Shown: positions 2,690 to 61,411 of the stretch, one piece after another
Layout: each line of letters opens with the position of its first letter
Position numbering within the stretch: position 1 is the first letter of the stretch
Assembly (NCBI GenBank): GCA_001972305.1
Contig: BDDD01001754.1
Location: forward strand, 16,568-80,567
DNA from: Cephalotus follicularis
Taxonomy: Eukaryota > Streptophyta > Magnoliopsida > Oxalidales > Cephalotaceae
Length of the DNA stretch: 64,000 bases
Direction: 5' to 3'
Program-made: the position numbers and the translations under genes
Notes under the pieces: model-generated
Told to the model about the DNA's origin: nothing
The model's database searches: none
The model's input: only the letters and a program-made list of their open reading frames with translations

Positions 2690-2935
2690 GAAATTCTGGC
2701 TTAAGCGCCGACGGTTCCAGGTAAAGAGTCGACGCTTTGGAGGCAACCGACGACGCTCCAAATGTAAGCTTCGACGCTTTGAGATCAAGTATTGAAGTTG
2801 ACCTGGACAAGACTTAAAGCGGCGACGCTTTGTAGGAAAGCGTCAGCACTTTAGTCGGGATAGAAGTTGGAGAACTCAGGATAAGCCCGTGACCGGCGAC
2901 GCTTAGTGAGAAAGAGTCGACGCTTTGCCCTGTGT
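2690..2935. repeat. Motif array, AGCGGCGACGCTTTG flavour (S2 U3)
   Basis: Irregularly spaced copies of agtcgacgctttg, agcggcgacgctttg and decayed forms (cgacgacgctcc, ttcgacgctttgag) lie about 230-470 bp upstream of the LTR's TATA-like box. The 15-mer agcggcgacgctttg also occurs in the copia C5 LTR near 51537, although S2 is gypsy-like. Confidence 0.8.
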
Positions 2936-3160
2936 CAGGTGCAGAATTCTAGCTTTTTATCCCGTTTCGGAGGATTTAAATGGATTGTAGGACATGTGTC
3001 AAGCAAGGAATGAAAGACTTATAATATTTTGCTAGAAAAGGACAGGTGGCATCAGCTGGATGGAAGGAATTCCATCACATGGGCAACTAGGAGGCAAACT
3101 CACATGGGTGAGGTCATGGATGACACCATGCAAGCTTGGCCTCCAAGTTTCCCTTTTTCT

Positions 3161-3170
3161 TTATATATGT
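3161..3170 (+). promoter_or_regulatory. TATA-like box of S2 LTR
   Basis: The sequence ttatatatgt lies downstream of the motif array and upstream of a purine-rich leader. This is the arrangement expected for an LTR promoter. The call is positional inference only. Confidence 0.45.
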
Positions 3171-5331
3171 GTGCATTCTTAGCTGAACAAAGGTTAGTTT
3201 TCTGCTGAGTTTGGAGAGGAGATTTCGTGGGGGAGCAAGAGAGAAGGAGATCAAGTGAGGTAAGGAAATTCTATACCCATTTATGTCAAAGTTTCCTCTG
3301 TTTTACTTCCAAATTATGCAGCAGATGTTTTTATTCATATCTTGCTCATTTCTTGATGAACTTTCTAATGGTTTAATGTTTTGAAAACCTTAAGATGTCT
3401 ACTTTAACTGTTATGTTTTATGCATCTCAAAATTCTATTGAATTCTTGATGAAAAGCCTCGTTTGATTCTATTGCTTAGGTCCTGTTTTCAAAAGGAAAC
3501 TGCAACTTTAAAAATTCATTGCAGCTTCGTTTCTCAATGGACTTTTATGATTTTTATCTCTATGAATTCATTGAGATGTATACTTTAACTCTTATGTTTT
3601 AAGTTTTCCATGAAAGAGTTTATTTCTATATGAAATATTTATTTTAGTAAAGTTATACAAAACTATTTTATAATGGTTTTTGAGTTAATTACTCAAAGTG
3701 ATGAGAAATGTTTTATGAATTGGGAAAGGAAATGAAATGAAGGTTTCTATATGGAAAACCGGTTTTAGAAAGGTTTTGCAATGAAGTTTTATGAATGCTT
3801 TGAGCTGATCACTCAAGGTATTAAGGAAGATTTTATGAATGCATTTGAGTTAACTATTCAAATGAAGAGAAATGTTTTATGAATACATTTGAGTTAATTA
3901 CTCAAATGAAGAGAAATGTGTTATGCATGATTTGAGCTGGTCACTCAAAGTATAAGAAATGTTTTATGAAATGAATGAACAACTACTGGATTGCGATCCA
4001 GTGAGGATTAATCTCGTAAAGATTAATGAATGAACCAAGGGAAAGAATTCGAGATGGATTAATGTTAATGGAGCGTAAAGTGCTCGCGGACATGCATGTG
4101 ATGTAAGGATAGTAATCGGGGAGTGCACAATACCCCGGTGAAGCGGTGTGAAAGGGTTCATTAGAGGTTCACTACCATTAAGTTTTATGAAATGTTCCGT
4201 TTCATGAGATATGAACAGAAAAAGGGTTTTAAAGATGTTTTATTTATGAATGTGAAGAAAATGATTTTACTGATGTTTTCAAGTATGGCTGTGATACAAG
4301 CCAAAAGAAAGTATGATTGGAAAACGTTTTTGATTGTTTTCAAGTATGTCGGTGTTATACACCAGAAAATGCATGATTTTAGAAATGTTCCGATTTTATG
4401 AAAGTTATCAAAAAAGTGTATTTTGATAGTGAAACGTTCTGGTTTTTTAAAACTAGAAGATGATTTTCAAAGATATTTTGAAATGTATGATGTTGAAACG
4501 TTTTGATATAAATTATCAAAAATAACGGATTTCGATAACGTTTTATGACTATGATTCTTACTGGGCTCTTTAAAGCTCACTCCTTTCAATGTCTTATTTT
4601 CTAACAAATCTTCCGGGAAACGTTGAACGTGAAGTTGCGAGCTTTAGTGGAAGTTCCTAAAAGAAGTGTAAGGAAAGGAAGTATGTTATGCTATGATGTT
4701 TAGTACATCTGTTTTTAATATAGTGAGTTCATGTTTTCCGCTGTGTAATGTTTTATGATAAACGATGTATAGACGTTAAAGTAAGGAAATGAATGCTATA
4801 GGTTATGATGTTTTTATGTAAGATGATGATATCAAGAGTTATTGAACATACTTAAAAGTATGAGAAGTTAATGGTAATGGTGAGTATATGATTGTTTTAT
4901 GATGTAATAAGTTTATGTTTTTTTGCTGTGAAAGGTTACATGTTAAGTGATGTACAAATGCAAAGGTATTAAAAATGATCATGATAATGAGAATATGACA
5001 TTTTGAAATTGGTGTTCAAAGATGTAAGCATATGTGATCCTGTGAAATGATAAGCATATTGAATATGATATGAAATGGATCGTTAAATGATTAAACGATT
5101 TGATGGTTAATGGTTCACACACACATAACGCACCGACTCCTCGAGGCTCGCTTTGAGCTATTAGCGAACTCGGGTCGGGGGCGTTACATAGGATCCACAT
5201 CTGTCAAATCATATAAAGATCATTTCATAATCATAAGTCATTTTTCATATCCAATGGCCATTTCGTGTTCATAATCCGTTTTGTAATCAATTTTTCATAT
5301 ATCATTTGGTTGGTCCCTATCGAAGTTATAA

Positions 5332-5689: not shown

Positions 5690-5995
5690 GCACTAAGCGT
5701 TGATGATTAACCCCGGGCGTCAACAGTTTTAAAAAGCACAATTATAAAGCGTCAACGGTTTGTTTTAAAGCATAAGGCGTCAACTGTTTGGTTTAACTCA
5801 TAAAAGCGTCGACAGTTTTAGAAAGCATAAGTATAAAACATCGACTACTCATTTTAAGACATGAAAGCGTCGACGAGTTTGGTTTAACTCATAAAAGCGT
5901 CGACAGTTTTAGAAAGCATAAGTATAAAACATCGACTACTCAGTTTAAGACATGAAAGCGTCGACGGGTTTGGTTTTGAAAGCATAAAGCGTCGA
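5690..5995. repeat. Motif array, GCGTCGACAGTTT flavour, with 91-bp tandem copies (S1 LTR)
   Basis: About ten copies of gcgtcgacagttt, gcgtcaacggttt, catcgactactc and gcgtcgacgagttt are present. Part of the array is a tandem duplication: taaaagcgtc starts at 5801 and again at 5892, a period of 91 bp. Variants differ mainly at the CpG positions. Confidence 0.85.
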
Positions 5996-6191
5996 CGGTT
6001 TTGATAGAAAATGTAGTTTGTGAAAGAGTTCGTAAATCAATGGAACTTTGTCCAAAACAGTTCAAAGCCCTTTTAAGATTCATCCCATAGCCCGTGAATT
6101 AAGAGAAGGCAAGAACTCATCTCCTCTAAATTCAATATCGAACCCTTATATCATATGCCATATGCAATATACATATCCATCCGTATACTCG

Positions 6192-6217: not shown

Positions 6218-6223
<6 letters not shown>

Positions 6224-8975: not shown

Positions 8976-8989
8976 CGTTCAAATGTTAT

Positions 8990-15665: not shown

Positions 15666-16686
15666 AAGGCCTCCCCTTGAGTATTTCACTAGGTATGCCC
15701 CAATCCGGGCTTGAAACTCCAACCAAGCTTCAACAACCTTCGCTCCAACCAAGCGAATACAAATTGCTCCAACCGAGCAAAACAAGAGACAACCTCTCTT
15801 GTTTATGTGTGAAATAAGTGTTTAAAGGTTTACAAATTCGCAACGAATTTGTTTACAATATAGCTCAATTCTAACAAAGCTTCTAGTATATAGGAAGTGT
15901 AAAGTTTAGAGCTTTGTAATGTGTGTTGTAGCTTTGATGTGTTCTCTTTTGATGTTTGAATGCTTTGGAATTGTACTTGAGATTACTAGAATGAATGTTC
16001 ACTTTGATTACAAGAGATGACCCCAAGAATGCTCCACTTTGGCATTTGTACTTGTGCTCCAACGGATCTATTTTTTAAAGTTCAGTTACAATCTAGTCTG
16101 CTGGATTTATACGGCAGTCAGCTGGATTTGATGGCGCGTATATTTGAATATAGCCGTTGGTGTTGGACAGTCGGCTGCTTCCTCTGGGCAGTCGGCTGGT
16201 GGACATGGCAGTCGACTGGTGCTCTGTTCCAGTCGGCTATTGGAGCTAGAAATGGGGCTTTTGGAAGTCACTGCCTGAATTTTCACAAATGTGGACAGTC
16301 GGCTGGATTCACTGGCAGTCGACTGGATCTTGTGGGTAGTCGACTGGTGCCCTGCTTCAGTCGGCTGTCTTGGCCTGGCAGTCGACTGCTCCCCTGTGGT
16401 AGTCGGCTGGATCATGTGTTCCTGCAATTTCTGGACTTGGTTGAAGAACCAGTCGGCTACACAACCTATGGCAGTCGACTACTCAACCTTGGCAGTCGGC
16501 TGGATTGCTTGGCAGTCGGCTGGATTGCCCTGTACCTGCAGAAATAGCCTTTTGCACATTTTGGACTTAAGATCAAGTGAGTATTTGAAGTTGTAACTCA
16601 GAGAATTATGCATACAAGGGTTATACGTTTGTTAATCATCAAAATAACATATGTAAATGCAATTAACGGGGTGGCAAAGGCCAACA
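15666..16686 (-). mobile_element. C2: copia LTR fragment related to the C6 LTR
   Basis: The right end reads ggggtggcaaaggccaaca, as does the C6 LTR end at 46903 (ggggtggcaaaaagccaaca). The two also share ccaacggatctatttttaa upstream of a GGCAGTCGACTG array, so this is the same LTR family in the minus orientation. The left end is truncated where it meets RNase H. Immediately to the right, at 16687, the broken G2 LTR begins. There is no gene inside. Confidence 0.8.
16075..16530. repeat. Motif array, GGCAGTCGACTGG flavour (C2 LTR)
   Basis: About 18 irregular copies of cagtcggctgg and cagtcgactgg are spread through the U3 part of the LTR, spaced roughly 15-40 bp. The long open frames on both strands here are products of the repeat, not genes. 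Confidence 0.9.
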
Positions 16687-16734: not shown

Positions 16735-17035
16735 CCGTCGACGCTTAGGAAAGAAGCGTCGACACTATGGATTGTTATACGGAGAATGAGTCCTGATTCG
16801 CGATAAACGTCGACGCTTACAGAAAATGTCGATGCCATGATTTGTTGTATGTGAGAATGGACACGTGTGCCATTGACGCCTGAGGTTCCTACCTCAGAGC
16901 ATCGACGCCAAAGGAATGAGATGTTGACGCGTAAAGTTTCTGGTTGGAAGAATTGACGCTAAGAGTTAAGCGGCGACGCTTAAGTGTCTGGGATGAACAT
17001 TAACGCCTATATGGTGTATGTTGACGCGAATAGAG
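16735..17035. repeat. Motif array, GCGTCGACGCY flavour (G2 5' LTR)
   Basis: Copies include gaccgtcgacgcttagg, agcgtcgacactatgg, aacgtcgacgctta, atgtcgatgcc and gcatcgacgcc. The counterpart in the 3' LTR is at 22876-23170, and the two copies differ mostly at CpG/TpG/CpA positions. Confidence 0.85.
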
Positions 17036-21475: not shown

Positions 21476-23732
21476 TGTAACGCCCCGAATTTCATAAATA
21501 ATTATTATGAAATTGGTGCGTGTACGATCGTAATAAAATCGATAGAGCCCGGAGTAATAAAAAGGCATTACGCATTTAAGTCGTAATTGTGTTAGCCAAA
21601 ACGGCTAATAAAGCCTATTTTTAATGCGCGCCAATAAAGCCCAAATGTTCGCAATATTATTGCGATTATTTTGGTGGTCGTTTGGATAATTTAATTCGTG
21701 GAAAAATCGGGACCCAGACCTTAGTATTTTTCCAGTAAATACTAAAGGGGGAAGCATTTTGCATAAAGGGAAGGAGAAAGGACACGGGCGCATCACGCGA
21801 CCGTGCAAAGGAAACAGGCAGCGGGCGCTCTGTGCGCCCGCGCCAGAGAGATGGTGAGAGAGATTGGGAGAGAGATCGGAGCAGAGGGAGAGAGAGCGCG
21901 CTGGAGCCAGCCACCGGACCGGGAGAGCACGGCGGTCAGCCCAGGGCCTCCAACTGACGGTAACCTCCTCCACTTCTTCTCTTTTTCTCTTCTTTTTCTT
22001 CTCCTTTGCCGCCACTGTCGCGCCTTTTCCCGGCGTTTCCCGGCGCCGTTAGCATCGCGGGTGGGGTGGGTTTTGGTGTAGAGGGCCCGCTCTTCCCATT
22101 TCCACCACCGGTGAGGCGTGATTTGGCCGGAATCGGCCGGAATGATTGACTGAGTCGACTCAGCTAGTCGACTCACTGTCGCCTGAGACGGCGCGTTCGG
22201 CGCCGAGTCTTGGCGAGTCACGGGCAGTGACGTGTAGGACTGGTAAATGTGTGGCGTTTTTGGGTGGTGATCGGACCTGTGGAGGTCCGAAGAGTTGACT
22301 CAGTGAGTCGCAACTCATTGCCGGCCGTGGCGCGGCGTTCGGCACCGATTCTCGGCGAGTCTTGACCGGTTTTGTGTAGACCGTTCAATGCGGAACCCGT
22401 TGATGGGTGTTTCGCCGCCTGGTTGTGTCGGTCGGAATCCGGCCGGCGTTTCGGCGACGGAAATGTTTTGTGTGTCGAACATAACGGAAATGTGTTGTAT
22501 GTGCAGTGTGTAAGCGGCAATTGGATTCGGCAGTGAGGAACTGATCAATTGGCAAGAACCGGCTTCGGTTCAACGGTTTCTGGAAAAGGTTCGGCAATTG
22601 AACGTGCATCTCGACTGTACGGTTGTTACTGCTGTAACAGGTAGGGGAAGCTATACATGCAAGTTTGAGTTCAATAATATTGTATTGCCATTGATGAAAT
22701 GCATGGTTTGCGGATTGTGAATTGTGTGACTGTGATTCTGTTAGGGTTGCTATGAATAGTTAACCTGTAATGCATATTGCGTTTTACAATGATTGCGGAT
22801 TGAATGGCATGTGTTTTATGATTGAGTCCTATTGGTTTTGGGACGTGTTGAAGGAACCGTGTTTTGGTTCGCTTGACCGTTGACGCTTAGGAAAGAAGCG
22901 TCGACACTATGGATTATTATACGGAGAATGAGTCCTAATTCGCGATAAACGTCGACGCTTACAGAAAACGTCGACGCCATGATTTGTTGTATGTGAGAAT
23001 GGACACGTGTGCCGCTGACGCCTGAGGTTCCTACCTCAGAGCATTGACGCCAAAGGGATGAGATGTTGACGCGTAAAGTTTCTGGTTGGAAGCATTGAGG
23101 CTAAGAGTTAAGCGGCAACGCTTAAGTGACTGGGTTGAACATTAACGCCTATATGGTGTATGTTGACGCGAATAGAGCCCGTTTGCATTATTGAGCATAT
23201 GTTCGCATTGCATACAATTGTTGATTGAGCTATCACCTGTTTTCTAAAATGTTCTTCATTTTAGAAGTGTATAAATGGTTTATTAAATCATTGTTATATG
23301 GAAAAGTATGTTTTCCAAAAGGATTGTTATATATATTGACAAATATATATGTTGCAAGTATTTATATATATAAATTACTTGAAGTGTTTGAAGGGAAGTG
23401 TATTGTTGCAAGTATTTTATGAAGCATAATTTACTTGGGAAATGGAGTGTTATATATATATTTTTGACAAATATATAGTCATTGTAATAAATGAATCGAT
23501 GAATCGATGTATATTGTTCACGCTCCGTTTGTGGGCAGTTAACTTTGATGATGTTTATTGTTGTAGCATGTAGTATGGGATGCATGTTATGTTATAATTC
23601 GGCTTATATTTAAATGCTTCCGCAAGTTGTTAATGGATATGGAAAGTTTTAAATTTATGGTAAATTGCATATGCCGGATTTATATGTTGATTGCCACCAC
23701 TATATATGTTGTTTGTGAAATGGGGCGTGACA
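21476..23732 (+). mobile_element. G2: 3' LTR with an internal deletion
   Basis: It begins TGTAACGCCCCGAATTTC and ends TGGGGCGTGACA. It keeps the U3 start and a GC-rich leader (about 21780-22620) containing gagtcgactcag words and a splice-donor-like aggtagggg near 22640. A motif array follows at 22876-23170. At about 23478 the sequence jumps from gacaaatatata to gtcattgtaataaatg, skipping about 1.1 kb present in the 5' LTR. The right flank is copia C3 gag, so G2 inserted there. The open frames in the leader lack any recognisable protein. Confidence 0.9.
22876..23170. repeat. Motif array, GCGTCGACGCY flavour (G2 3' LTR)
   Basis: This is the counterpart of 16735-17035, with words such as gaccgttgacgcttagg, aacgtcgacgcc and gcattgacgcc. 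It lies upstream of the deletion junction. Confidence 0.85.
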
Positions 23733-24189: not shown

Positions 24190-24400
24190 GGGCGCTTGCG
24201 CGTCAAAGCCAAGAGATGGCATCGACGCCAAGGAACAATGGGAGCTTCTTGCCTTAAGGCGTCAATGCCAAGAGATGGCATCAACGCCATCGATTGGGGA
24301 AACAAGAAGGTGAGTGTTAACGCGGTTCGCAGAACCTGTTAGCGCCAAGGAATGCAGTCAACGCGTCGACGCGCATCGTGAACGTTGACGCCAAAACTGT
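24190..24400. repeat. Motif array, GCGTCAACGCC flavour (S3, first part)
   Basis: Copies include gcatcgacgcc, gcgtcaatgcc, gcatcaacgcc, gcgtcgacgcg and acgttgacgcc. Further copies in the same LTR occur at 24925-25075, 36978-37345 and 40072-40190, on the far sides of A1 and S4. Confidence 0.85.
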
Positions 24401-37362: not shown

Positions 37363-40071
37363 TATAACACCCAGTGTTTTTTTTACGGTAATATTTCATT
37401 TTAAGATGTAATCTTATACTTGAATTAATGAAAATGTTGGAGATTTCGGCCTCAAAGATGTTTCCAAACCCTAAATATTGTTTTGGGGGAAGAAATGTGT
37501 GTGTTAAACCAAAACGGCGCAGTTTTGGGACCATCGCGTCGATGTCTTTGGAAAGACGTCGACGCCTATGGGAACCAAGATGCACGTGAATGCATGTACA
37601 TGCACGTCGATGTAGGGTGAAGACATCGACACCCTCTTATGAAAGAGGAAAAGACATCGACGTCTAAGGAAAGACATCGACGTCTTTGAAAAGAACATCT
37701 GTCACGTTATACACTGACAGAATAACATGCAATGGGGAAACTTTTGAGGCATCATCCAGGCATCTTGACATGTACAATGTGACGTGTTGATCATGCTGGT
37801 GTGTTGCCAGGAATGCTCCAAAACGTGTCCTTGACATGGTGCATGCAAGAGGATATGCCATCTTCATCTACAACCTGCAGAAGGGAAAGGAAAAAGAGCC
37901 AAAAACAGGAAGGAGGGGGGAGAGCACAGGTGTGTGTGGATGCATGTGAAACAAGAGAGAAGGGGAGGACTCATGCCAGCATAAAACACCTCTTCCTTCC
38001 CCTCTTTCTCAGCTAAACACAATGAGAAAAGAGACAGAACGGAGAAAGAGAGAGAGAAGGTAGAACCACCATTGTTGAGCACTTGGAGCTTGGACCTTGG
38101 AGCTCCTGGGATTGCAACTTGGGCGAGTTGGAGCTACTGTGAGCAACCCTTGGAACACAAAGAGGTGGACTTTCCAGTTCCTAACTTGGAACAACAAGGT
38201 AGGGGAAAGTGATGATTCTTATACATGCATTTTGAGTTTTAAGATAATGAATGCCATGGGTGAATTGCATGTTAATGGATGAATTGTAATCTCTAGACTT
38301 GTTGTGATGACTACTATGATGTACGGAGTGAACATGCATGTGCAAATTACATGAATATTCGAACTGGTTTGTGTAATGGATGATTTGGGTAATGACCTGG
38401 TGTGTTAAAACTACGGAAATGACGTTCTGCACTGAATAGACGTCGACGTCTACATAAAGACGTCGATGTCTTCATGTGTGAATGTGAAAGACATCGATGT
38501 TTGAGTAAAAACATCGACGCCTTTTCTGGGTATTCATAGAACAGTAGTGTTTACTGTAGATGGTGAATTGGCCACTTGTGGTTACATGTTTATTTATGGA
38601 TTGATGTTCTGGTTACATATCCTGATAACCAGTAGCATGTCTTACGCCTTGAGAGAGTGAGTTTCACTTATACGAGGGTTTAGGGGCCGAATTCTTCCCT
38701 CTAGAATCAAGATTCGCGAACTGATACCTCCTGGTATCATAAAGACATCGACGTCTTTGGAAAAGCATTGACGTTTTTGGTCCAAAAATGCCTGGGAATA
38801 ACTGTACGAGATGCTGGTGCCTTAGGGTAAAGACGCCTACGCCCTGGGAATAAGCATCGACGCTTATTCTCCTGTTTGGAAAAATCTCACTCGGATGGGA
38901 CCCGCTAGACCCGAAACGACTCTAGAAATGATCCTAGTTGCATTCTGAGCATATGTTTGCATTATTACTGAACTGTGAATTGCATTATGGTTGATTGCTA
39001 AAAAAAGTGTTAACCATTTTGAAAAGCTCGTATGATTGTTATAATCATTATTGTACGAAAATGTATATTTGTCAATATATGAATATATATATTTTCAAAA
39101 TGACTGGGGAAAGTATTTTCCAAGGACGGAGAAATGTTTTAAAGGATTGGTTATACAATCAAAATGTATTGTTTTAAGTTTTATAACTCATCACAACCTG
39201 AGAACGGAGTAATATATTTCAAACGAATATATTTGATCAAGTAGTTATATTTTATTGCTTGACTTGTACTGTACGATGTTTGTGCTTGTTGATTATTAGC
39301 CGCTGTGCTAATAACCTGTTGATTGTTTGGCCGTCGTGCTAAGCAACCTGTACGGAGGACTTGCTCCAAACCATTCGCAAACGGGGATGGGGTAAGAGTG
39401 CATGACGTTGGGGCCAGGAGGTGGCGACGGTCATGACGACTTGTTTGTCTGGTTCCTTTGGGACATACTTACTGCTTGTGTTGATGTAGCCTTATGAGGT
39501 TATACCTGTACTGTGAACATGCATATATTTACATATGCATATTTTGCGATATGTATATACTGCGATATATATATATATATTGTACTGCATCATAATGCAT
39601 TCATTCATGATACTCATTATCATATACCTCGAACTGCATTTATGAGTTTATTCACTTAGCCGAGTGAGGACAAAGGCTAACCCCTACTGTAACAGATTGA
39701 TGGAGTGGGATATGATATGGAGCACGCAAGGAGACTTAAGGAGAAGACTGAGTTGTTTCTCTTATTTTATGTACTGGATCAAATAAACAATGACTATGTT
39801 AATTGGATTATTGTAACGTGGTTTATTTTATCATCCTGTACTGTTTTATCACGCTCCGTTATGGGCGATCGACATGATGTTGGGTTTTATATAAACTTGT
39901 TGGGTATCACATAGTATGGGATGCGTGATACATATTTAAATTCAGCTTATTTCATGTTATTGCTTCCGTTATTGAAGGTTTTGTTTATACGTATTATCGC
40001 ATAAGCTGAATTATGTTGTGTTGATTGCCTTACCTCTTTAATGATGTCCTCTGGGAAAACGGGGTGTGACA
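37363..40071 (+). mobile_element. S4: solo LTR nested in S3, same family type
   Basis: It starts TATAACACCCAGTG, ends AACGGGGTGTGACA and is flanked by TCAAC on both sides (37358-37362 and 40072-40076). Length is 2709 bp with no interior. Motif arrays lie at 37535-37690, 38435-38525 and 38735-38880. A purine-rich leader and splice-donor-like aaggtagggg (38197) occupy 37900-38210. The tail has the shared cttagccgagtgaggacaaa and catcatgcatt-type modules. A short TA run is at 39557-39580. No gene is present; frames around 37800-38080 are leader sequence. Confidence 0.92.
37535..38880. repeat. Motif arrays, GACATCGACGTCTTT flavour (S4)
   Basis: Three clusters contain gcgtcgatgtctttgg, agacgtcgacgcc, aaagacatcgacgtcttt, gacgtcgatgtcttc and agcatcgacgctta. 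The flavour is the one seen in copia C4 and C7 although S4 is gypsy-like. Confidence 0.85.
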
Positions 40072-45799: not shown

Positions 45800-46903
45800 T
45801 GAAATGACCTATATGGCAACCTCAAATAACAAAATGTATGCGGTAATTACAATTTAAACTATGAATATAGACAATCACACAAGAACAAATAAATTAAAGA
45901 GTTAAGGGATAGAGAGTGTGCAAACGAATTTATAGTGGTTCGGCAAAATCCGTACCTACGTCCACTTTCTCAAGAACCCCTTGAGTTTCCACTAGAATCC
46001 ACTAGCAACCTTTGATTTTCGGCTTACGGGTGCAAATCAAAGAAAACCACCTTACACTTGATTTTGGGTTCCGGGTGCAAATCAATCAAACACCTTACAA
46101 GGGTTCACTCCCTCTATTACAAAGAATGATAAAAGTGATTTGTGTTGTGTTTACAATAACCTCTCAAAGGTTGGATATGAAAGTGCTAGCTTAGTTACAA
46201 GCTTTGGATATTGATTTGAAAGATGTAGAATAGCTCTAGTGTTGCTTGGAAGGAATGTGTATTTGCTTGATATCTCTTGATATGTCCCTTTTGTAAAAAT
46301 ACCACATTCTTCCTTATAGAGATCTTCCAACGGATCTATTTTTAAGCAATCAGACCAAATCCAGTCGGCTGGATTTTCCTTGCAATCGGCTGGTAAATTG
46401 TTGTGCATTTGTAATTATAGCCGTTGGAGGGAGGCAGTCGGCCGTATGCCTTGGCAGTCGACTGATGCTCTGTTCCAGTCGGCTGTCTGAGCTAGAAATT
46501 CGATTTCAGAAGCTACTGGTTGAAATGTGCATCTCTTGGCAGTCGGCTGGGAAGCCTTGGCAGTCGACTGGATTGTCACGGCAGTCGACTGGAGCTCTGA
46601 GGCAGTCGGTTGGCTGGAGTGCAAATGCAGGTTCTGGGTTTGTTTGAAGGTCCAGTCGGCTAGTCATACTTGGGCAGTCGACTACACAACCTCAACAGTC
46701 GGCTGGTTTGTCATGGCAGTCGACTGGATTGCCTGTTTCTGTAATTTAAAACCTTTGCAACACTTTCAACATTACAACCAAGTGAGTATATGAATTTGTA
46801 TGATATCAAAACATGCATACAAGTATTTCTTGATTGTTACTTGTTTGTTAATCATCGAAACATAAGCTTTAAACACAATTAAAGGGGTGGCAAAAAGCCA
46901 ACA
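45800..46903 (-). mobile_element. C6: 3' LTR
   Basis: Plus-strand left end TGAAATGACC and right end AAAAGCCAACA; on the minus strand the right end follows a polypurine tract. Length is 1104 bp. A GGCAGTCGACTGG array fills 46360-46735. On the minus strand it is followed after about 45 bp by a TATA-like ctctataagg (46322). Related to the C2 LTR. Confidence 0.85.
46360..46735. repeat. Motif array, GGCAGTCGACTGG flavour (C6 LTR)
   Basis: About 14 copies of cagtcggctgg, ggcagtcgactgg and variants occur at irregular spacing in U3. The same words recur at 48778-48857, just upstream of ORF3 of the same element. Confidence 0.92.
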
Positions 46904-47552: not shown

Positions 47553-48662
47553 TCAAGATGATCCGGGATGTGGTTGTTGAGGGAAGGCATTTTGGAGCAT
47601 TTGGATCACTTGGGCCATTTGTGCATCTTGCGAATCTAGGCGATCATAAATTTGATCCACCCTTCCTTGAATGTATTCCATCTTCTCTTGTAGCGACTCC
47701 ATGGTTGGCCGACTACTACCACTCCCGCTTCCTCCAACACTTGGCCTCACTTCGAATCTATCTCCGTCATCATCTTCTTCCTCTTCTTCCCCGACATCTC
47801 TCCCAATATCTATAACTGGTTCCCTTACCGGTGCTCTTCCTGCAGCTTGTATCTTTACCCAAAGACTATCTTCAAACTTAATATTACAATTCCTTAAACC
47901 GGCTTTATTGATCAATTGTTTGGATTTCGGTTTGACATTGTGTTCATCATTAAGGTCAATGTCTAGGGTAGCTAGAATCCTACTTAAAAGCATAGGATAT
48001 GGGAGGTGATGGGGTATTGACAAAATATGGTTAACAATAAGGTATGGGAGATTGACAAGGGTTCCATTCTTTATGCAAGCTACTAATTTTAGGTCTCGCT
48101 CGGATGGGAGGGTATGCGAGCCTTCTCTTGGAAACAAAGTGTTGGTAACTAGCAATAAAAGAATACGAGTAGCTATGGGCAAATGGCTACTAGTGACAGT
48201 CATAATAGGATTGACATTGGACCGTTCTAGGCAAATTTCCAATGCATCGGATTTTTCGATATCGTTAAAGTGTGTGATACCGGTGCATGGAATTCCTAGG
48301 GTTTCACCTATGAATTCAGGGGTTATTTCAACAGTAACCCCAAGAACAAAAGATTCGGCAACATAATTGGAGGATTTTTCAAGGTTAGCATAAAAAAATT
48401 TCACTATCTTAGGGTAAATGGGGTGAGATGAACACAAATAATCAAACCATCCTAATTGTTCAAGCCATGGTCTAATGGATGCAATATTGGAAGTTAAAAT
48501 CTCCCTATCTAACCATTTCTCATGATGTAATTTGACAGAATTTAGAGTAAAGTTATACCTCTCCTCATTTTCTTTGGAGAGAAATAGGTCACCATCATAA
48601 TCCATCCTTGCACTTGAGCTTCCTTGTTTGGTTCCCGCACTTTTTCTCTTCCTTGATGCCAT
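47553..48662 (-). CDS. C6: intact ORF3, putative plant transposon-type protein
   Basis: An uninterrupted 369-residue protein. The start is ATG at 48662 (MASRKRKSAGTKQ, basic, possibly nuclear-targeting), preceded by a pyrimidine-rich leader and a TATA-like box. Residues about 25-270 form a folded domain with WLDREILTSNIA, LGWFDYLC, YPKIVKFFYANLEKSSNYVA, GETLGIPCTGI, NTLFPREGSHTLPS and LPYLIVNHI. These are landmarks of the 'putative plant transposon protein' family found in many plant repeats. Residues 292-301 are acidic (EEEEEDDDGD), 309-320 Gly/Ser-rich, 321-357 a probable coiled coil, and the tail is Q/P-rich. It sits where SIRE-type copia elements carry an env-like ORF. I see no signal peptide or membrane segment. 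Function unknown; it may be the best preserved gene of the window. Family name is from memory. Confidence 0.85.
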   Translation of the reverse strand: MASRKRKSAGTKQGSSSARMDYDGDLFLSKENEERYNFTLNSVKLHHEKWLDREILTSNIASIRPWLEQLGWFDYLCSSHPIYPKIVKFFYANLEKSSNYVAESFVLGVTVEITPEFIGETLGIPCTGITHFNDIEKSDALEICLERSNVNPIMTVTSSHLPIATRILLLLVTNTLFPREGSHTLPSERDLKLVACIKNGTLVNLPYLIVNHILSIPHHLPYPMLLSRILATLDIDLNDEHNVKPKSKQLINKAGLRNCNIKFEDSLWVKIQAAGRAPVREPVIDIGRDVGEEEEEDDDGDRFEVRPSVGGSGSGSSRPTMESLQEKMEYIQGRVDQIYDRLDSQDAQMAQVIQMLQNAFPQQPHPGSS

Positions 48663-48860
48663 AGATGATAGAGGGACAAAATTTTTGGCGATTTTTAGGG
48701 TTTGGCAGTGTTTTTGGGAAAGAAAGTTGTGAGAGAGAAGGAGAAAATCGCGTTTTATAAAATCTGTTCTGTGTAAAAACAGTCAACTGGTGTCATTGGA
48801 CAGTCGACTGGATCACAGACAGTCGACTGGACCAGGACACCAGTCGGCTGGAAGCTGCAG
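48663..48860 (-). promoter_or_regulatory. Putative internal promoter of C6 ORF3 with GTCGACTGG array
   Basis: Reading the minus strand: four motif copies (ccagccgactgg, ccagtcgactg twice, ccagttgactg; 48857-48778), a TATA-like attttataaaacg at about 48752-48764, a pyrimidine-rich ctccttctctctcac, then about 90 bp of leader to the ATG at 48662. The motif is the one in the element's own LTR. Promoter activity is inferred from layout. Confidence 0.6.
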
Positions 48861-51339: not shown

Positions 51340-52310
51340 CAAGCACTCGACATCAGCGGTTAAAAACAGAGACTTTTGGGGTAATTATAATTGCTCAAAG
51401 CGGCGATGCTCAACACAAACCGTCAACGCTTTGAGGGAAACCGTCGACTCCAAATTCAAGACCGTCAGCGCTTGGAACAGAACTTTCAAATTCAAATATC
51501 CAACGGATACATAAGCGGCAACGCTTTGAGGAACAGCGGCGACGCTTTGCGTGCGGGGAACAAATTTCTGACAACATTTTTAATGCACCATTTATTGAAG
51601 GAACAAGTCTCAAGACAAAAATACAACTTCCTAGACTGAAGTTACAACTTCCAAGGCTGAAGGAACAACTTTCAAGATAGAAAGCATCAACTCCCAAGGT
51701 CCAAACATTATTGCTATTAAATGAAATTTAGCTACAAAGAAGAAGAACACTAGAAATTAGAAATAAGAACAAGAACATTCAAGCAAGTGGCAATCAAGAG
51801 CAAAATCCAACACTTTCATATCATCATCAAGAAGTCTTTTCAAGATTAATTTTTATTGTTGAGAGCAATCAAATTTCTTGTAATCAAAATAGCCATACCA
51901 AACCTTTGAGAGGTTACACAAAACACTTATCATTTTTGTAATCCACACTTAGGGGAGTGAACCCTAAAGTGAAGAAAGGGGAGTGAACCCTTGTGATTGA
52001 GGCCAATCACAAAACATTGTAAAGGTGCACCGAATAGCCCCTGTAAAGATATTCAGAGATTGTGTTCGGGTGGAACACTAGTGAAAACTCAAGGAGGACC
52101 TTGGGAAAGTGGACATAGGCACGATCTTTGCCAAACCACTATAAATTGTGTTTGCATCTCTCTAACCCTTTTCTCCGTAATTACTTTATTTATTTTATTG
52201 ATGATTGCCTATTTGATTTGTGTTCATTACTTAACTTGATTAAATCCGAAAAAGTTAATAAAATTAGTTAATACTACAATTCACCCCCCCCCCCCCCCGT
52301 AGTATATTTA
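51340..52310 (+). mobile_element. C5: 5' LTR, main part
   Basis: It continues the LTR started at 45703. A motif array lies at 51400-51560, then a purine-rich transcribed part with aggggagtgaaccctaaag and gtgattgaggccaatcac (shared with C4), and ggaccttgggaaagtggac. The end is caattca plus a run of 15 C (52284-52298) and gtagtatattta before the primer site. SIRE-type LTRs typically end in such a C-run. No coding. Confidence 0.85.
51400..51560. repeat. Motif array, AGCGGCGACGCTTTG flavour (C5 LTR)
   Basis: Copies include agcggcgatgctc, accgtcaacgctttgag, accgtcgactcc, agcggcaacgctttgag and agcggcgacgctttgcg. The last shares 15 bases with the gypsy-like S2 array at 2818. Confidence 0.85.
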
Positions 52311-56160: not shown

Positions 56161-59100
56161 TGTAACACCCCCCGAACGGAGGGAGTCGTCACGGGTCCTA
56201 ATCCTAGACTATTCATAACCGATCTTATAACATGGCTCAATTTTATTCCTTTTTATCAATTTATTAACTTAGCATATATTCCTATTTAACTATAAATCAA
56301 GGTTTGCCTTTATTCTTACTATCAAATTATTAACTTATCTTTAATTCAAATTGCGTGATGGTCTAAAACTTAATATTCAAAATCTAAAACATTGTCTAAT
56401 ACTTTATTCATAATATGAAACTTAAGCATAAACCAAAACTGAAATATAATCCAAAGTTATAAACTGAAAGACATAATATTGCTCAAATAAGGGTCCTAAC
56501 ATGACCATAATATAACTAAACATAAATGGTTCCATCTCCTACGTGATCCTTAAACATAGGTGACATCTCGCTCATCACACATTGCCCAGATGCTGTCCCA
56601 GAATACCTGCCTCATGGAAACAAAAACGCGGCTGAGCAAACCTCAGTACGGATATAGAATCATAAAACATAAAACGGTAATTTTAAAAGATAGAAAATAC
56701 CTGAATCTTCAAATATCATATACTTTATGCATAAATAAATTAACATTATTTTTAAAAAGCGAAGGTAAATAGACATACAATCAATTCAAAACGAATATCT
56801 AATTTTAAAAGCGTTATTCAATTTAAAAACATAAGCCAAGTTCAAAACAGTATCTAAATCAAACGTCAAGTTACTTTAACATCAACCAAGTTAAAGATTT
56901 TAAAATAAAAACTTATCCGATTCCATAATCTCATCATAGAGATCCAAACATATCACAGAGACTTATCCGATTCCGATATCTCATTCCAGAGATCCAAAGC
57001 GCATACACATATGCGAAGTTGCAAGGGGTTTGCAAGGCCCACATGCCAAACGGAAAGACGTGTACGGCACTACGCAATCAATCCCCAAAATCCGAATCCT
57101 TAACATAACAAAAACTAGAGTATACCCATACGCCTCTATCACAAAATCGGATCCATAAGTCCACCTCATGGGACTTATTCAAAACAAAGAGAGACGCCGT
57201 AGTCGAATCACACTGCTACGGAAGTGTCACGTCCCCGTGCCAGGCCCACGACGTGCCTATGGTACCTCCATAGGTAGGAAATATCTCTGTGTATATCTTT
57301 ATTTCAAAAACATGGTTTTATTTCTAAAAACAATTTAAAAACGTAAACGTATTTTCTAAACATTTTCTGGACATAGCAAAATCATTACGTAACATCAACT
57401 CATTTATTTTCCACTATAAAGAGATGATCATTTCATAACATATCGTAAAAACATAACCAAGTCTATAAAACGAGATCATAGATTAAAACTGATTTTAGTT
57501 TGATAAATAGATAGCCAAAGAACGATAGAAATCCGTACATTATTTATAAAGTAAAACTATCTTTTTACTATAAAAACAGTAGGAGGGTGTCAAGGAACGA
57601 AACATCCGTACGTTATTCATAAAAATATAAAACTGAATTTGTTTAGATAAAACCGAAGGAGATATCGAAGAACGAAAAATCCGTACATTATTCATAAAGT
57701 AAAATTAACATTTTTACTCTAATAAAATCAATATGAGCTCCAAAGAAAGAATGATCCGTACCTTAAGCGATCACAAAAATAGCTTTACGAATTGATCAAC
57801 AATTTAAAAGTCCCTCGAAGCACAAAAATCTAAAAGGTGCAATATCATTCATATAAGGATTCAATTATCACTCCCAAACATCAAACAGTAACTTAATAGT
57901 GTTTAAAACAGACTCCAAATCATTAGACGGACAAACGGATTACAAAACTTGAAACCAGAAAATTCGCTGGACAATTCCAGTCGACTGTATCAAGATCCAG
58001 TCGGCTACTCAAAGGTGGCAGTCGACTGTGTGGCATAGGCAGCCGACTATTCATACTAGGTTGAATCCAGTCGACTGTTTAATGGGTGGCAGTCGACTGT
58101 TTAATGGGTGGCAGTCGACTGTGCAAGGCAAAACAACTGACTGTTTCAATAGGCAGTCGACTGTTCTGGCGACAGAACAGCAAAAACAGCAGTTTCAATT
58201 CCAATCTTCTGTCAAAACCGTTTTTACTACATTACTAGATGATTTTAAACACTTATATAGGTCTTATGTGACTTAACCGTGGCATTTAAACATCCAGAAT
58301 CAAAAAGTTCAGGCAGTTGGTGATCACACTTTTAAAGAGAAGCAAGTTCCAATTCTTTATATGCATAACTTATGTGATCAATTTCTGTCATATACCAATT
58401 TCTAGTTTCAATATCTGTTTATAACCATTACTAGACACCTCAGGGCTTGCTAACAATCTCATAAACATTAACCAAACATACATGGCAAGAATTAATAAGA
58501 AAACACACTAGCAACCTATATGAACATGCATTGGATATTATAAACGAAAATTCACCGCTAAACCATATCAATAGAGTAAAACAAACCTGGTATGATGATC
58601 AAAGGAGAACAAAACGAATTCCAATCTTGCAGGTTCGGGTCTTAGGCACAATGACACAATGGAGGCACAAACAAGGAGCATATATCATATATAACCAAGA
58701 AATAAGGCAATTTAGGTTATGATAAGCCAAAAAGGAATCCAAATTCTGATATAATGTGGAAAGGGGGCATAATTTCGGGATTTGAGGGAGAGGAAGAAGG
58801 AAAGAAATTAGTTTTGTGAGAGGGAGAAGGAAGAAAACGGGAAAGGGAGGGAAGAAAAGGGAAAAATAAGTTTTTAACCAAAAATACAATTTTTGTTTCT
58901 TAATAAGATAATTTTGCCAATAATAATAATAATAAAACTGATTTAAACTAATTTACAATACAATAAAATTAATTCAATTAATTTTACTTATTCACGTACA
59001 TAGTCCAACCAATATTCAACAGCCCGAAATTAACGTCTTTAAGCCTAAAACATAAAAGCCCAAATTAATAATTCAAAAACTGATTTTAAAATACAAAACA

Positions 59101-59313
59101 ATTAACTTTTATTTTTCCATAATCCTTATTATCTTATTTTATCAAAAGCCCAAAGGTTATAATATTTAGCCTAAGACATAAAAGCCTAAAAATTATATCA
59201 TATAGTCCAAACACAAGAGTCCAAAATTTAACATAGGCCAACATAATATAACAAAGTGAAATAAAATCAAATAAAGATCCAAAAATATGCAGGTGAACGA
59301 ACGGGGTATTACA
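56161..59313 (-). mobile_element. S5: solo LTR in C5 RT
   Basis: Plus-strand termini TGTAACACCCCCCGAACG and CGAACGGGGTATTACA, flanked by ATCAA on both sides (56156-56160 and 59314-59318), a perfect duplication. Length 3153 bp, no interior. The minus strand is favoured because a pyrimidine-rich leader (58890-58780) and a GCTCAGCC-type tail (near 56630) read that way. A GTCGACTG array is at 57970-58165. 57290-57760 has repeats of aaaatccgtacatta type. No gene: short frames have no motifs. Confidence 0.9.
57970..58165. repeat. Motif array, GGCAGTCGACTG flavour (S5)
   Basis: About eight copies: ccagtcgactgt, ccagtcggctac, ggcagtcgactgtg, ggcagccgactatt and others, with a short tandem repeat gtttaatgggtggcagtcgact. 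The same words are found in copia C2 and C6, although S5 is gypsy-like. Confidence 0.88.
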
Positions 59314-60082
59314 ATCAATACGCATGTTACTTGCATATGCATCCTTTAAGGATTTCACTCTTTTTCAAATGGATATTAAAAGTGCTTTCTTAAATGGTGT
59401 AATAAAGGAGGAAGTATATGTAGAACAACCTCCCAGGTTTGAAAACCCTCATTTGCCAAACCATGTCTTTAAACTTTCTAAAACTCTATATGGTTTGAAA
59501 CAAGCTCCTAGAGCTTGGTATGAAAATTTAAGTGGTTATTTGTTTGAAAATGGTTTTAAAAGAGGAACAATAGATATTACACTCTTTACGAAAACTTGTA
59601 ATAAAGAAATTTTAATTGTCCAAATTTATGTTGATGATATCATTTTTGGGTCTACTAATAAAAATTTGTGCAAGAATTTTGCTAAGATTATGTAGGACGA
59701 ATTTGAAATGAGCATGATGGGAGAGCTCAAATATTTCCTAGGACTTCAAGTCAAACAAACAAAAGATGGAATCTTCATCAACCAATCAAAGTATGTCAAA
59801 GACTTACTCAAAAGATTTGGGATGGAGAACTCCAAAAAGAGTAAGACTCCTATGAGCACAACTACGAAGCTAGATAAGGACGAGCAAGGTAAACCTATCG
59901 ACCAAAAACTTTATAGAAGCATGATAGGTTCATTGCTCTATTTAACGGCTAGTAGACCAGATATTTTGTTTAGTGTTTGTCTATGTGCTAGATTTCAAGC
60001 TTCACCTAGAGAATCACATTTGCATGCAGTAAAAAGAATTTTTAAATACTTAGCTTACACACCAACCTTAGGCCTTTGGTAC
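59314..60082 (+). pseudogene. C5: copia RT continued, to the start of RNase H
   Basis: After the ATCAA duplication, RT continues: DFTLFQMDIKSAFLNG (first catalytic Asp kept), EEVYVEQPPRFENP, LYGLKQAPRAWYENL and the active box YVDD at 59627-59638 (IYVDDIIFGS). One TAG is near 59693, then FEMSMMGELKYFLGLQVKQ, YVKDLLKRFGMENSK, SMIGSLLYLTASRPDILFSV and HLHAVKRIFKYL. It breaks off at GLWY, 60082, where C7 begins. Catalytic residues are intact, so the enzyme died mainly by interruption. RNase H would be beyond C7, outside the window. Confidence 0.94.
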
Positions 60083-61411
60083 TGAAATAAAATAATTGCT
60101 CTCGCAAAATACAAGAGGGGGGGTGAATTGAATAATAGAGCAATAACAAACAAATAAAAAATTTAAAGTAAAAAGAGTAGGGATAGAAAGATTCTCTGTT
60201 TTTAGAGTGGTTCGGCTAACTCTTGCCTACGTCCACTTTTCCCAAGGGAGCTCCTTGAGTTTCTACTAGCTCGAATTGATTAAGGAAGCAATTCGTTACA
60301 CCTCACAGTTTTGTGATTGACCTCAATCACTAGACCTTGACCTCAAGACCTTTAGAGGATTCACTCTCCTCTTTTACAAGTGTTTGTAAGGTGTTTACAA
60401 TGTAACCTCTCAGTAGGTTTGGCTTACAATAAAGAACAAGAGAAAATTACAGAAAGAAACTTCAGAAAAAATAAAACTTTGAAGCTAAGAGCACTTTGAA
60501 CTTTGTATAATGTAACTTTGCTTGATTGCTTGTGTTCTTTGTTTCTTGATGTTTTCTGAAGCCTTGAACCCTCATTTATATAGCCAAACAATCCATGTAT
60601 CCGTTGCTTAAATCATGGAGATTTTGAATTGAAAAACTGATGATTTGCTGTAAACTCTGTTATGTAGTCGTTGGAGCAAAGCCGTCGATGTCTTTGATAA
60701 GCGTCGATGCCTTTACCAGTTAACTAGCCGTTGCGAGCATCCAGGGCGTAATTGTTGTCGAAAGACGTCGTTGTCTATAAATGGCGTCGATGTCTTTTCT
60801 AGAGTTGTCGCCAGTCTTTGAAGATGTGAGCAACACATCGATGTCTTTCATGGGCGTCGATGTTCTTTCTGGAAACACAAAAGTTATGAGCAACACATCG
60901 ATGTCTTTTTAAAGGTATCGATGTCTTTTGATTGGACGTCGGTGTCTTCATAGAAATGGATCGATGCTTTTCTTCAAAAATGACCTGTAACTTTTTGGCA
61001 TAAACGCATCGATGTCTTTGTAAAGGGATCGATGTCTTTGAGTTAAACAGTCGATGTCTTCTCTAAAATAGATCGATGTCTTTGAATGAAAATTGCCTGT
61101 AACTTTCTAGGATAAAGACGTTGATGTCTTCTCTAAAAGGGATCGATGTCTTTAGTGAAAATTGACCTGTAACTTTAGGGGCTAAGGACGTCGATGTCTT
61201 TGGAGAAAAGGATCGATGTCTTTCATGAATAACCACCTATAACTCCTGGTTCATTAAAGGCATCGATGTCTTCCTTCAATGGCGTCGATGTCTTTTATGT
61301 AAAATGTCTTTTTGCCTTTTGTGAGATTGAAATTATCTTGCACATAAAATAAACTTGTTAAAAAGCAAATATGTTATCATCAAAACTAGGATTGAGACTA
61401 AAATGTCAACA
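60083..61411 (-). mobile_element. C7: copia 3' LTR
   Basis: Plus-strand left end TGAAATAAAATAATTGC and right end AAATGTCAACA; length 1329 bp. On the minus strand it starts TGTTGACATTTTAGTCTC, like C4, contains the array at 60680-61310 and a TATA box gctatataaatg (60571-60582), and ends with a C-run (ccccccctcttg, 60125-60113). It is inserted in C5 pol after GLWY. Confidence 0.92.
60680..61310. repeat. Motif array, GCGTCGATGTCTTT flavour (C7 LTR)
   Basis: More than 20 copies of gcgtcgatgtcttt, gatcgatgtctttg, gacgtcgatgtctttg and similar. The minus strand reads aaagacatcgacgcc, the flavour of C4. The same flavour recurs upstream of ORF3 of this element at 63290-63465. Confidence 0.93.

Follow-up and report, generated by a model that had tools for sequence, protein, structure and literature searches.

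Palindromic box arrays of matching flavour in copia and gypsy-type LTRs of Cephalotus follicularis, accompanied by clades of an envelope-position gene

Palindromic "RM boxes" of copia Sireviruses have been known since 2010, from a study that compared Ty1/copia elements and in which 12 of 13 published motifs have a CGG-CCG core, Tnd-1 being an exception; in its available parts, that description left open the role of the ENV-like gene and the binder of the boxes, for which no single factor could be named (Bousios et al., 2010; PMC2829016). Extra genes between pol and the 3' LTR have also been described in other retrotransposons, namely the T32-like ORF of sunflower Athila, TRP28 of Retand and gene23 of Grande, whose products are predicted to be nuclear or DNA-binding and for which a regulatory role has been suggested (PMC11728184, PMC11963269, PMC7264820). 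The sunflower Athila protein, which has partial T32 similarity, is predicted to be nuclear, with an NLS (PMC11728184). Binding of element-encoded proteins to arrays of sites has been measured for the VANC proteins of VANDAL elements (PMC5735166, PMC10398659). In the carnivorous pitcher plant Cephalotus follicularis, we find that two unrelated kinds of retrotransposon share rows of palindromic boxes and that the version of box tracks the version of an extra protein encoded by one of them, pointing to a private switch that the second kind may have come to exploit.

We analyzed a 64,000-nt stretch of this genome (the window), for which a preliminary description had reported three flavours of an array with a GTCGAC core. 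Each flavour was recovered at or close to the positions reported there, and GTCGAC does occur, but the common feature is a wider, roughly palindromic, TCGA-centred box, with core variants that include ATCGAT in flavour B, TCGG in C and GGCGAC in A. With at most one mismatch to the 10-bp cores, the window contains 35 flavour A, 67 flavour B and 41 flavour C matches, against means of 0.65, 3.65 and 1.95, respectively, in 20 shuffles. Adding a fourth flavour, D (the gypsy box ACGTTGACGC), and merging overlaps gives 176 boxes, 163 of which fall in 20 clusters of at least three boxes (Table 1). The arrays are phased: among 143 neighbour distances of up to 130 bp in the window, 79 are 19-22 bp, and none are 5-17 or 23-26 bp.

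Two of the box patterns are abundant across the genome, with 37,431 exact copies of AAAGACATCGACGTCTTT versus 161 of its reversed control, and 23,564 of CCAGTCGACTGCCA versus 99. Clusters were present in 14 of 20 sampled 10-kb stretches; 26 of the 30 clusters found there are of a single flavour, four combine A with D or B, and none combine C, while 88 of 155 neighbour distances are again 19-22 bp. First-look searches returned 6757 candidates for the gypsy-type family S2 and 7146 for S4, and the 40 scored in each case comprised the family's own window copy and 39 others, at 91-93% (S2) and 90-95% (S4). All ten fetched copies of each of S2, S4 and S5 contain boxes: three to five A boxes per copy in S2, five to six boxes, mostly B, in S4, and six to nine boxes, exclusively C, in S5. 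The LTR families are thus numerous and the arrays extend beyond a few degenerate copies, a concern that the preliminary description had raised.

Table 1. Box arrays, LTRs and T32 genes in the window, in order of position.
Feature	Position	Strand	Evidence
Gypsy-type LTR S2, ends TGTAATGACCC...GTTACA, high-copy family	2465..5188	+	LTR ends
Flavour A array of S2 (5 strict boxes), ahead of a TATA-like site near 3168	2726..2923	+	
S1 gypsy-type LTR (begins near 7424, minus), array of A-like flavour	5717..5998	-	
C2 Sirevirus-like LTR array, flavour C, 15 boxes	16115..16522	-	
A/D array of gypsy-type LTR S3a, whose end and PBS are at 18695	16735..17027	+	
A/D array of gypsy-type LTR S3b, which starts at 21476 with a polypurine tract directly ahead	22877..23169	+	
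S6 gypsy-type LTR, two arrays (A/D; D plus one B match)	24219..25068	+	
C4 Sirevirus-like 5' LTR array, flavour B, 15 boxes, TATAAA about 100 bp downstream	31395..31905	+	
C4 T32 gene, C-terminal part (clade B)	33667..34362	+	HMM E 1.1e-59; 59% to C7 copy
C4 3' LTR array, flavour B, 15 boxes	35125..35635	+	
Gypsy-type array, flavour D with A-like boxes	36981..37336	+	
S4 solo LTR, Ty3/gypsy family, target duplication TCAAC	37363..40071	+	
S4 first array, flavour B (5 B, 1 A-like)	37536..37683	+	
S4 second array, flavour B (6 B, 1 A-like)	38440..38863	+	
C6 Sirevirus-like 3' LTR array, flavour C, 13 boxes	46362..46726	-	
C6 T32 gene (clade C, 369 aa), sense strand, ahead of 3' LTR	47553..48662	-	PF20167 E 1.9e-23
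Upstream of C6 T32, four flavour C boxes in phase, then TATAAA ahead of the ATG	48780..48850	-	
Flavour A array of C5 Sirevirus-like LTR, 3 boxes under strict matching and more under looser	51396..51550	+	
S5 solo LTR, gypsy-type, target duplication ATCAA	56161..59313	-	
S5 array, flavour C, 8 boxes	57978..58163	-	
C7 Sirevirus-like 3' LTR array, flavour B (18 B, 1 A match)	60682..61291	-	
C7 T32 gene remnant (clade B), broken frame	61763..63105	-	
Seven TCGA-centred boxes (loose; 5 strict: 4 B, 1 A) upstream of C7 T32	63290..63460	-	

The copia elements C2, C4, C5, C6 and C7 look like Sireviruses. C2 and C6 are a related pair, as are C4 and C7, so the copia elements are probably a single lineage with three box types; their reverse-transcriptase pieces are broken. 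The Sirevirus polypurine tract (PPT) octamer AGGGGGAG, followed by AT and the TG of the LTR, is exact in C4 (34995) and C6 (46906) and at the junctions of the C5-type copies L058 and L059; the terminal tract of C7 is one change from the octamer, L060 has two upstream octamers and none at the LTR junction, and C2, where the junction is not kept, falls outside this comparison. Linker copies of the PPT also precede the 3' LTR (four in C4, four in C6, two in C7). The gag of C5 matches PF14223 and PF00098, with a bZIP match at sub-threshold level, and a C-rich signal lies near the LTR end in C5 (52284, 15 C) and C7 (60117, 7 G on the plus strand); the C2, C4 and C6 pieces contain no runs of six or more C. 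As is typical of Sireviruses, palindromic boxes occur both in the LTR and ahead of the gene at the ENV position, and a TATA match lies downstream of the LTR array in C2, C4 and C7, the same pattern finding none in C5 or C6.

Assignment of the gypsy-type LTRs draws on several features. A gypsy pol lies beside the 3' LTR of the S4 family, with a PPT adjoining the LTR, in one of four upstream stretches (L099), and its residues 308-508 are 77.6% identical to the gypsy pol of the window. In the S5 family copy L071, the polypurine tract AAGGGGGGAAGGA precedes the LTR start, and tblastn gave no pol match. S2 is provisionally classed by its LTR ends and length; the window copy has no clear target duplication and no linked pol, and no PPT-linked pol was present in four upstream stretches. 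The array of S1 is spaced at about 30 and 60 bp rather than 21. We presume a likeness of these elements to the Tekay lineage of Ty3/gypsy and use that name for the likeness only. The flavour D array that ends at 37336 seems to resume at 40114-40180, past the S4 insertion.

The flavour pairing between unrelated copia and gypsy-type families that the preliminary description had proposed is borne out by an unsupervised comparison of five copia and seven gypsy-type LTR pieces. Excluding low-complexity sequence, the two groups have 61 12-mers in common, versus a mean of 13.5 and a maximum of 23 in 30 shuffles, and under strict string matching 39 of the 61 contain a box core. Box 12-mers link C5 to S2 (and S3b), C4 and C7 to S4, and C2 and C6 to S5, with a single exception, a link between C7 and S5. 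Within several of these families, the boxes outlast the spacers: identity is 112/121 in boxes and 143/233 in spacers between C2 and C6 (p 6e-11), 125/150 and 204/327 between C4 and C7 (p 3e-6), and 713/760 and 757/1001 in the S5 family (p 2e-26). This is not the case in the S2 (462/500 vs 1372/1480) and S4 (570/600 vs 842/875) families, where boxes are conserved no better than spacers.

Behind the boxes lies a gene for PF20167 ("Transposase_32", hereafter T32); the C6 protein scores 83.7 bits against a curated cut-off of 45, and at E up to 1 PF20167 is matched by all 33 members of a T32 set (A1). LTR flavours A, B and C are accompanied by three T32 clades with 20-30% identity between them; independent lineages are only these three, the copies inside each being closely related. 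By eye, B boxes occur in the LTRs of six of six clade-B elements (from the listed boxes) and C boxes in five of six clade-C elements, the sixth having no boxes in range. All three fetched flavour-A elements have the third clade, identified by an HMM built from A1 (E 4e-36 to 3e-40) and 20-30% identical to clades B and C, together with A boxes in the LTR and upstream of T32.

Boxes upstream of T32 also match the flavour of the clade, less cleanly for B. Both T32 genes in the window that keep their start have boxes upstream. Seven of eight clade-C loci have four C boxes at about -187, -166, -147 and -126, L035 having none, and the three clade-A loci have 2, 2 and 3 strict boxes, or 5, 6 and 6 at up to 4/14 mismatches, a raw count without shuffle baseline; between these boxes and the LTR there is no loose A-box match. 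A TATA box lies directly downstream of the boxes at clade-A and clade-C genes, and a TATA site match was found at none of the eight clade-B genes. All eight clade-B loci have at least one strict box, yet these are variants, with 12 of 20 labelled A and 8 labelled B, and by 9-mers are nearest to B LTRs; we therefore lower slightly the probability of our best explanation. Overall, 14 of 15 T32-upstream regions (all except L034) are closest in 9-mers to the LTR class of their own clade, a pattern that disappears once boxes are masked. We found no T32 partner for flavour D, and detected no T32 in the box-bearing Ty3/gypsy families, whose elements were read in part.

The T32 protein has a basic N-terminus and a C-terminal coiled coil, the sole part modelled near pLDDT 80; both structure models are poor overall (mean pLDDT 36.8 and 46.6). 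No DNA-binding domain is among the matches listed by sequence scans against Pfam and PDB, and DUF1985, the VANC domain, is not among the 25 listed of 29 Pfam families matched by the 33 T32 members at E up to 1.

The explanation we favour, at just short of an even chance, is that T32 regulates by binding DNA, much as VANC does, with the boxes as its sites, and that gypsy families may use it in trans. The boxes would be protein-binding sites inside promoter regions, each near-palindromic and two DNA turns from the next, to which T32, encoded by Sirevirus copia elements between pol and the 3' LTR (the "envelope" position), would bind as a coiled-coil oligomer. With arrays in the LTR, the main promoter, and just upstream of the T32 gene, a likely internal promoter, T32 would boost expression both of itself and of the whole element, whether by activation or, like VANC, by countering silencing. 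Joint diversification of T32 clades and boxes would yield separate private channels A, B and C, and Ty3/gypsy families with arrays of the same flavour may depend on the copia protein in trans. More tentatively, and with the balance leaning against so broad a claim, Sirevirus envelope-position genes may in general encode not envelope proteins but fast-diversifying, sequence-specific DNA-binding regulators that target two-turn-phased palindromes in their own LTR and promoter, with Ty3/gypsy families that evolved matching sites exploiting the channels to form two-superfamily trans-regulatory guilds A, B and C.

The preliminary description had raised the possibility of one host DNA-binding protein, which is disfavoured since the three box types go with three element-encoded T32 clades. 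A family of host transcription or silencing factors, to which Sireviruses and gypsy elements adapted separately and with T32 merely driven by a like promoter, is somewhat unlikely, though it has points in its favour. Repeated activator sites are common in LTR promoters, and a database comparison of RM boxes gave sites of stress-related factors (Bousios et al., PMC2829016). With host factors, gypsy elements could share the boxes without borrowing a protein from another element, and one host factor per channel would likewise account for the occurrence of the same boxes both in the LTR and ahead of T32. However, several proteins with one core, one two-turn arrangement and differing arms would be required, and we know of no such plant protein family; nor would host factors lead one to expect LTR flavour to go with T32 clade, as it does in three of three lineages. 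The palindromes might instead work as RNA, through folded transcripts for packaging or as small-RNA triggers, as discussed for maize Sirevirus LTRs, whose palindrome-rich regions have been termed small-RNA mapping hotspots (PMC5311732). The arrays do fold better than shuffles (z -5.5 in C4, -3.3 in C6 and -5.8 in S5), but such scores are uninformative because palindrome arrays of any kind fold well, and pairing needs neither two-turn B-DNA spacing nor boxes just upstream of TATA at clade-A and clade-C T32 genes; we consider this reading improbable.

Past recombination or template switching may have moved a U3 block between copia and gypsy elements, the remainder having since decayed. S5 and C2 do have a few bases beyond the box in common (CAAGATCCAGTCG), and the TCGG and CTA variants occur in both S5 and C2/C6. 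A recent swap of whole U3 blocks, which the preliminary description had named as a possible source, is contradicted by self-BLAST of the window (E 1e-8, at least 60 bp), which lists no copia-gypsy match across the arrays, and by 12-mer sharing that consists mostly of boxes. Even an older transfer would have to occur at least three times with the boxes alone retained, which implies selection, and we give it little credence. Ordinary, functionless minisatellite growth would fit the lack of excess box conservation in the S2 and S4 families; it is already hard to hold given the excess in C2/C6, C4/C7 and S5, the same flavour in unrelated elements and the boxes at T32 promoters, and we regard it as very improbable.

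Under the T32 explanation, three protein clades matched to three box types are directly testable with purified proteins. Use of these sites by gypsy families would mean a trans-acting factor common to different superfamilies, a kind of inter-element parasitism that could shape which families expand in a genome. Self-encoded anti-silencing would also extend from one group of DNA transposons, the VANDALs, to abundant plant retrotransposons, and T32 would be a source of related DNA-binding proteins with differing specificity.

The copia half of these observations is already known in kind, although the preliminary description knew of no described system: the published RM boxes are likewise palindromic, many per LTR and upstream of TATA, and further copies precede the ENV-like gene, where 77 of the 79 linker boxes lie (Bousios et al., 2010; PMC2829016). 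Unlike their CGG-CCG core, the boxes here have a TCGA core with three arm types (A, B and C), a centre also seen in the published Vitis CGGTCGACCG and Tnd-1 ACAATCGATTGT boxes, and two-turn phasing, the T32 clade match and presence in Ty3/gypsy LTRs go beyond the published account as available (PMC2829016). The literature searched contained no report of high-copy gypsy-type LTR families bearing the same box flavours, or of a PF20167 gene behind boxes with clades tracking LTR flavours A, B and C. The extra genes of Athila, Retand and Grande occupy the same position as T32, those of Retand and Grande being antisense whereas T32 here is sense, and the available parts of these reports yielded no proposal of binding sites (PMC11728184, PMC11963269, PMC7264820). 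VANC differs from T32 in having DUF1985 and, for VANC21, a non-palindromic motif (YAGTATTAY), and its binding has been measured whereas that of T32 is proposed from sequence (PMC5735166, PMC10398659). Nevertheless, similarly to VANDAL/VANC, an element-encoded protein family is accompanied by dense arrays of sites in non-coding parts of the same elements, and sites and proteins diversify together (PMC5735166, PMC10398659).

Boxes, our term for near-palindromic motifs centred on TCGA, form LTR arrays of three flavours (A, B and C) in the window where the preliminary description had placed them, and its proposal that each flavour is common to a copia and a gypsy-type LTR was borne out by shared 12-mers found with no motif supplied, which pair C5 with S2, C2 and C6 with S5, and C4 and C7 with S4 (C and S denoting copia and gypsy-type elements or LTRs, respectively). 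Copia and gypsy-type LTR pieces have 61 12-mers in common (shuffles: mean 13.5, maximum 23); box 12-mers of C5 also match S3b, and one crossing box 12-mer links C7 with S5. One-mismatch cores exceeded their numbers in 20 dinucleotide shuffles for all three flavours, with 35 versus a shuffle mean of 0.65 for A, 67 versus 3.65 for B and 41 versus 1.95 for C, and the window holds 23 TCGA-centred perfect 10-bp palindromes versus a shuffle mean of 2.65. After merging, and with a gypsy-type flavour D added, 176 boxes were counted, 163 in 20 clusters of at least three boxes each and 13 as strays. Among neighbour distances of up to 130 bp, 79 of 143 measure 19–22 bp and none 5–17 or 23–26 bp, so that most neighbours lie two DNA turns apart; the S1 array, spaced at about 30 and 60 bp, departs from this rule.

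The box arrays are real and genome-wide. In the window's own assembly (1.577 Gb), where the window lies on contig C1754, AAAGACATCGACGTCTTT occurs at 37,431 exact places versus 161 for its reversed control, and CCAGTCGACTGCCA at 23,564 versus 99. A genome sample of 20 10-kb stretches, chosen by hand and blind to content from contigs 57 to 1497 rather than by a random generator (9218 of 200,000 bases masked), yielded 211 boxes, 183 of them clustered, with clusters in 14 of the 20 stretches; 26 of 30 clusters are of a single flavour, and A is mixed with D or B in four. Neighbours in this sample are 19–22 bp apart in 88 of 155 cases, and perfect 10-bp palindromes make up 12.9% of TCGA sites versus 0.9–3.1% for 12 other cores. 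First-look candidates numbered 5209 for the S5 family, 7790 for C5, 7146 for S4 and 6757 for S2, with 40 scored each. All 10 fetched copies of each gypsy-type family carry boxes (6–9 C boxes per copy in S5, 5–6 boxes, mostly B, in S4, and 3–5 A boxes in S2), and on these counts we rejected the reading that the arrays survive in a few degenerate copies. Exchange of whole blocks between copia and gypsy elements was likewise considered and rejected, as self-BLAST of the window (E 1e-8, at least 60 bp) listed no copia–gypsy match over the arrays and the 12-mers in common are mostly boxes.

The copia elements look like Sireviruses in having the junction AGGGGGAG-AT-TG, further copies of this tract within the linker, gag domains and, for two of the elements, a C-rich signal. 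C2 is related to C6 and C4 to C7, so a single lineage bearing three types of box probably accounts for all five copia LTRs. Both S4 and S5 are solo LTRs flanked by target duplications of 5 bp. The S4 family belongs to Ty3/gypsy: in front of the 3′ LTR of one copy (L099) lies a polypurine tract and, about 1 kb upstream of it, a gypsy pol 77.6% identical to that of the window. A polypurine tract without a pol match precedes the LTR of an S5 copy (L071), and S2 is tentatively assigned to gypsy by its LTR ends and length. L071 holds a second such LTR start, as if the LTR unit were in tandem (see table).

Boxes are better conserved than spacers in three comparisons, with p values that are rough, given the non-independence of positions and the tendency of aligners to match boxes: C2 and C6 are identical at 112 of 121 box versus 143 of 233 array-spacer positions (p 6e-11), C4 and C7 at 125 of 150 versus 204 of 327 (p 3e-6), and the S5 family at 713 of 760 versus 757 of 1001 (p 2e-26). 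Copies of S2 (462 of 500 versus 1372 of 1480) and S4 (570 of 600 versus 842 of 875), being more alike, show no such difference. The tests on gypsy families used 10 of the 40 scored copies of each family, most of them ranked among the first 17 of its list.

Three copia elements of the window carry an extra sense-strand gene before the 3′ LTR, its start kept in C6 and C7 and its C-terminal part in C4, whose product (hereafter T32) matches PF20167, Transposase_32. Boxes lie just upstream of both T32 starts in the window: four C boxes in C6, with TATAAA between boxes and ATG, and seven loose boxes in C7, five of them strict (four B, one A). We surveyed eight clade-C and eight clade-B T32 loci, selected from lists of 111 and 95 places, respectively. 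In seven of the eight clade-C genes, C boxes stand at four positions (about -187, -166, -147 and -126), with a TATA match near -97; the eighth, L035, has neither. At L035, B boxes occur 550–857 bp upstream of T32, perhaps from a neighbouring LTR fused to the gene. Every clade-B gene has at least one strict upstream box, the 20 strict labels dividing into 12 A and 8 B, and none of the eight has a TATA match; six clade-B genes inspected with a looser core have eight listed cores apiece, mostly phased boxes of the pattern AAA..ACGTCGAC..CTTTT.

Own-LTR flavour was compared for 12 of these 16 loci (no LTR was fetched for L032, L037, L040 and L045). The LTR contains B boxes in all six clade-B elements, with only three each for L047 and L048, whereas five of the six clade-C elements have C boxes there and L052 has none in range. 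If boxes and T32 are linked, Sireviruses of flavour A would be expected to carry a T32 of their own, a prediction set before it was checked. C5 is cut off before the T32 position in the window; three C5-type elements, chosen from scored LTR hits by a partner LTR about 8.7 kb away, all encode T32 (HMM E 3.6e-36 to 2.9e-40), with 20–30% identity to clades B and C. These clade-A genes are preceded by 2, 2 and 3 strict A boxes, followed by a TATA-like site, and A boxes recur in the LTR. When as many as 4 mismatches in 14 are tolerated, a count made without a shuffle control, there are 5, 6 and 6 upstream A boxes, with pairs 21 bp apart, and within the fetched 3.6 kb such matches are confined to the T32 upstream region and the LTR. 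In a 9-mer test of 15 regions (10 of the 12 upstream/LTR pairs, the three clade-A elements and two from the window; the pair L030/L052 was left out for having no LTR boxes in range, and the pair L035/L057 for having no upstream boxes), 14 T32-upstream regions have more 9-mers in common with LTRs of their own clade's class than with the other classes. The mean number of core-bearing 9-mers in common is 6.1, 7.7 and 7.3 along the diagonal versus 0.1–2.5 off it, and masking the boxes abolishes the diagonal. As copies within each clade are close relatives, the independent lineages number three.

T32 has a basic N-terminal stretch and, at its C-terminal end, a predicted coiled coil (residues 321–359), the only part of the structure models near pLDDT 80 (mean 36.8 with 33 sequences, 46.6 with 116); a PDB sequence search gave weak coiled-coil matches only (best E 0.035). 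All 120 protein matches listed, of 296, are from Cephalotus follicularis (best 92% identical), and a search aimed at other species likewise gave only Cephalotus proteins among the 120 of 149 matches listed. None of 52 pattern matches in viral contigs was confirmed as a relative of T32, and a single box-pattern match in an unrelated contig was taken as chance. Two queries of the Cephalotus assembly gave 13,256 and 15,268 first-look T32 candidates (111 and 95 scored); with T32 so numerous, many of the gene models annotated as putative plant transposon proteins, perhaps most, may belong to retrotransposons.

Further observations are tabulated. Boxes may occur in LTR elements beyond Sireviruses and the S families, as at the A-like boxes near a primer-binding site. 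A copia or T32 partner for flavour D has not been found so far. The S4 target duplication, TCAAC, falls in an apparent D box, a single case of a possible link between insertion and D box.

Additional features and their positions (window coordinates unless a contig is named)
Feature	Position	Remark
Flavour D boxes (ACGTTGACGC / ACGTTAACGC)	24949-25068, 36981-37336, 40114-40180	several gypsy-type LTRs
Three A-like boxes	14519-14610	just 3′ of another LTR element's primer-binding site (14377)
S4 solo LTR with its target duplication	37350-37363, 40071-40083	within flavour D array
GTAGGG, splice-donor-like site	22640, 24710, 38195	common to gypsy-type LTRs; box array further downstream (by eye)
Two S5-type polypurine tract and LTR starts (L071)	C367:52900-56800	about 3.56 kb apart

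The boxes, found both within LTRs and next to T32 genes, aligned along one face of the helix and sometimes immediately preceding a TATA site, look like protein-binding arrays. Their binder would be expected to exist in related versions, one per flavour, and T32, which is element-encoded and whose versions follow the LTR flavours, would be a candidate. T32, perhaps oligomerising through its predicted coiled coil, would bind the boxes and activate or un-silence its element, and gypsy families with the same boxes would profit in trans; judged from sequence, we consider this nearly an even call. More tentatively, T32 may constitute a family of Sirevirus DNA-binding regulators, with Ty3/gypsy families using matching sites as trans-regulatory guilds A, B and C. 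The mixed strict A and B labels upstream of clade-B T32 led us to rate both readings slightly lower. No T32 was found in eight 1.6-kb stretches before S2 and S4 LTRs, among which L099 is the one clear gypsy 3′ end, nor in the S5-type L071, each stretch covering part of an element.

The preliminary description knew of no comparable system; the copia half is known in kind from Bousios et al. (2010; PMC2829016). Among the open-licence PMC papers listed by literature searches, none mentions in its title or the opening of its abstract that gypsy LTRs hold such boxes, that the boxes correspond to a protein of the element, or that T32 binds them; what is new is the association of flavour with T32 clade, together with the occurrence of the boxes in gypsy elements. 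In sunflower, an Athila protein resembling T32 is predicted to be nuclear (PMC11728184). The role proposed for T32 would resemble that of VANC, which activates or un-silences VANDAL transposons (PMC5735166).
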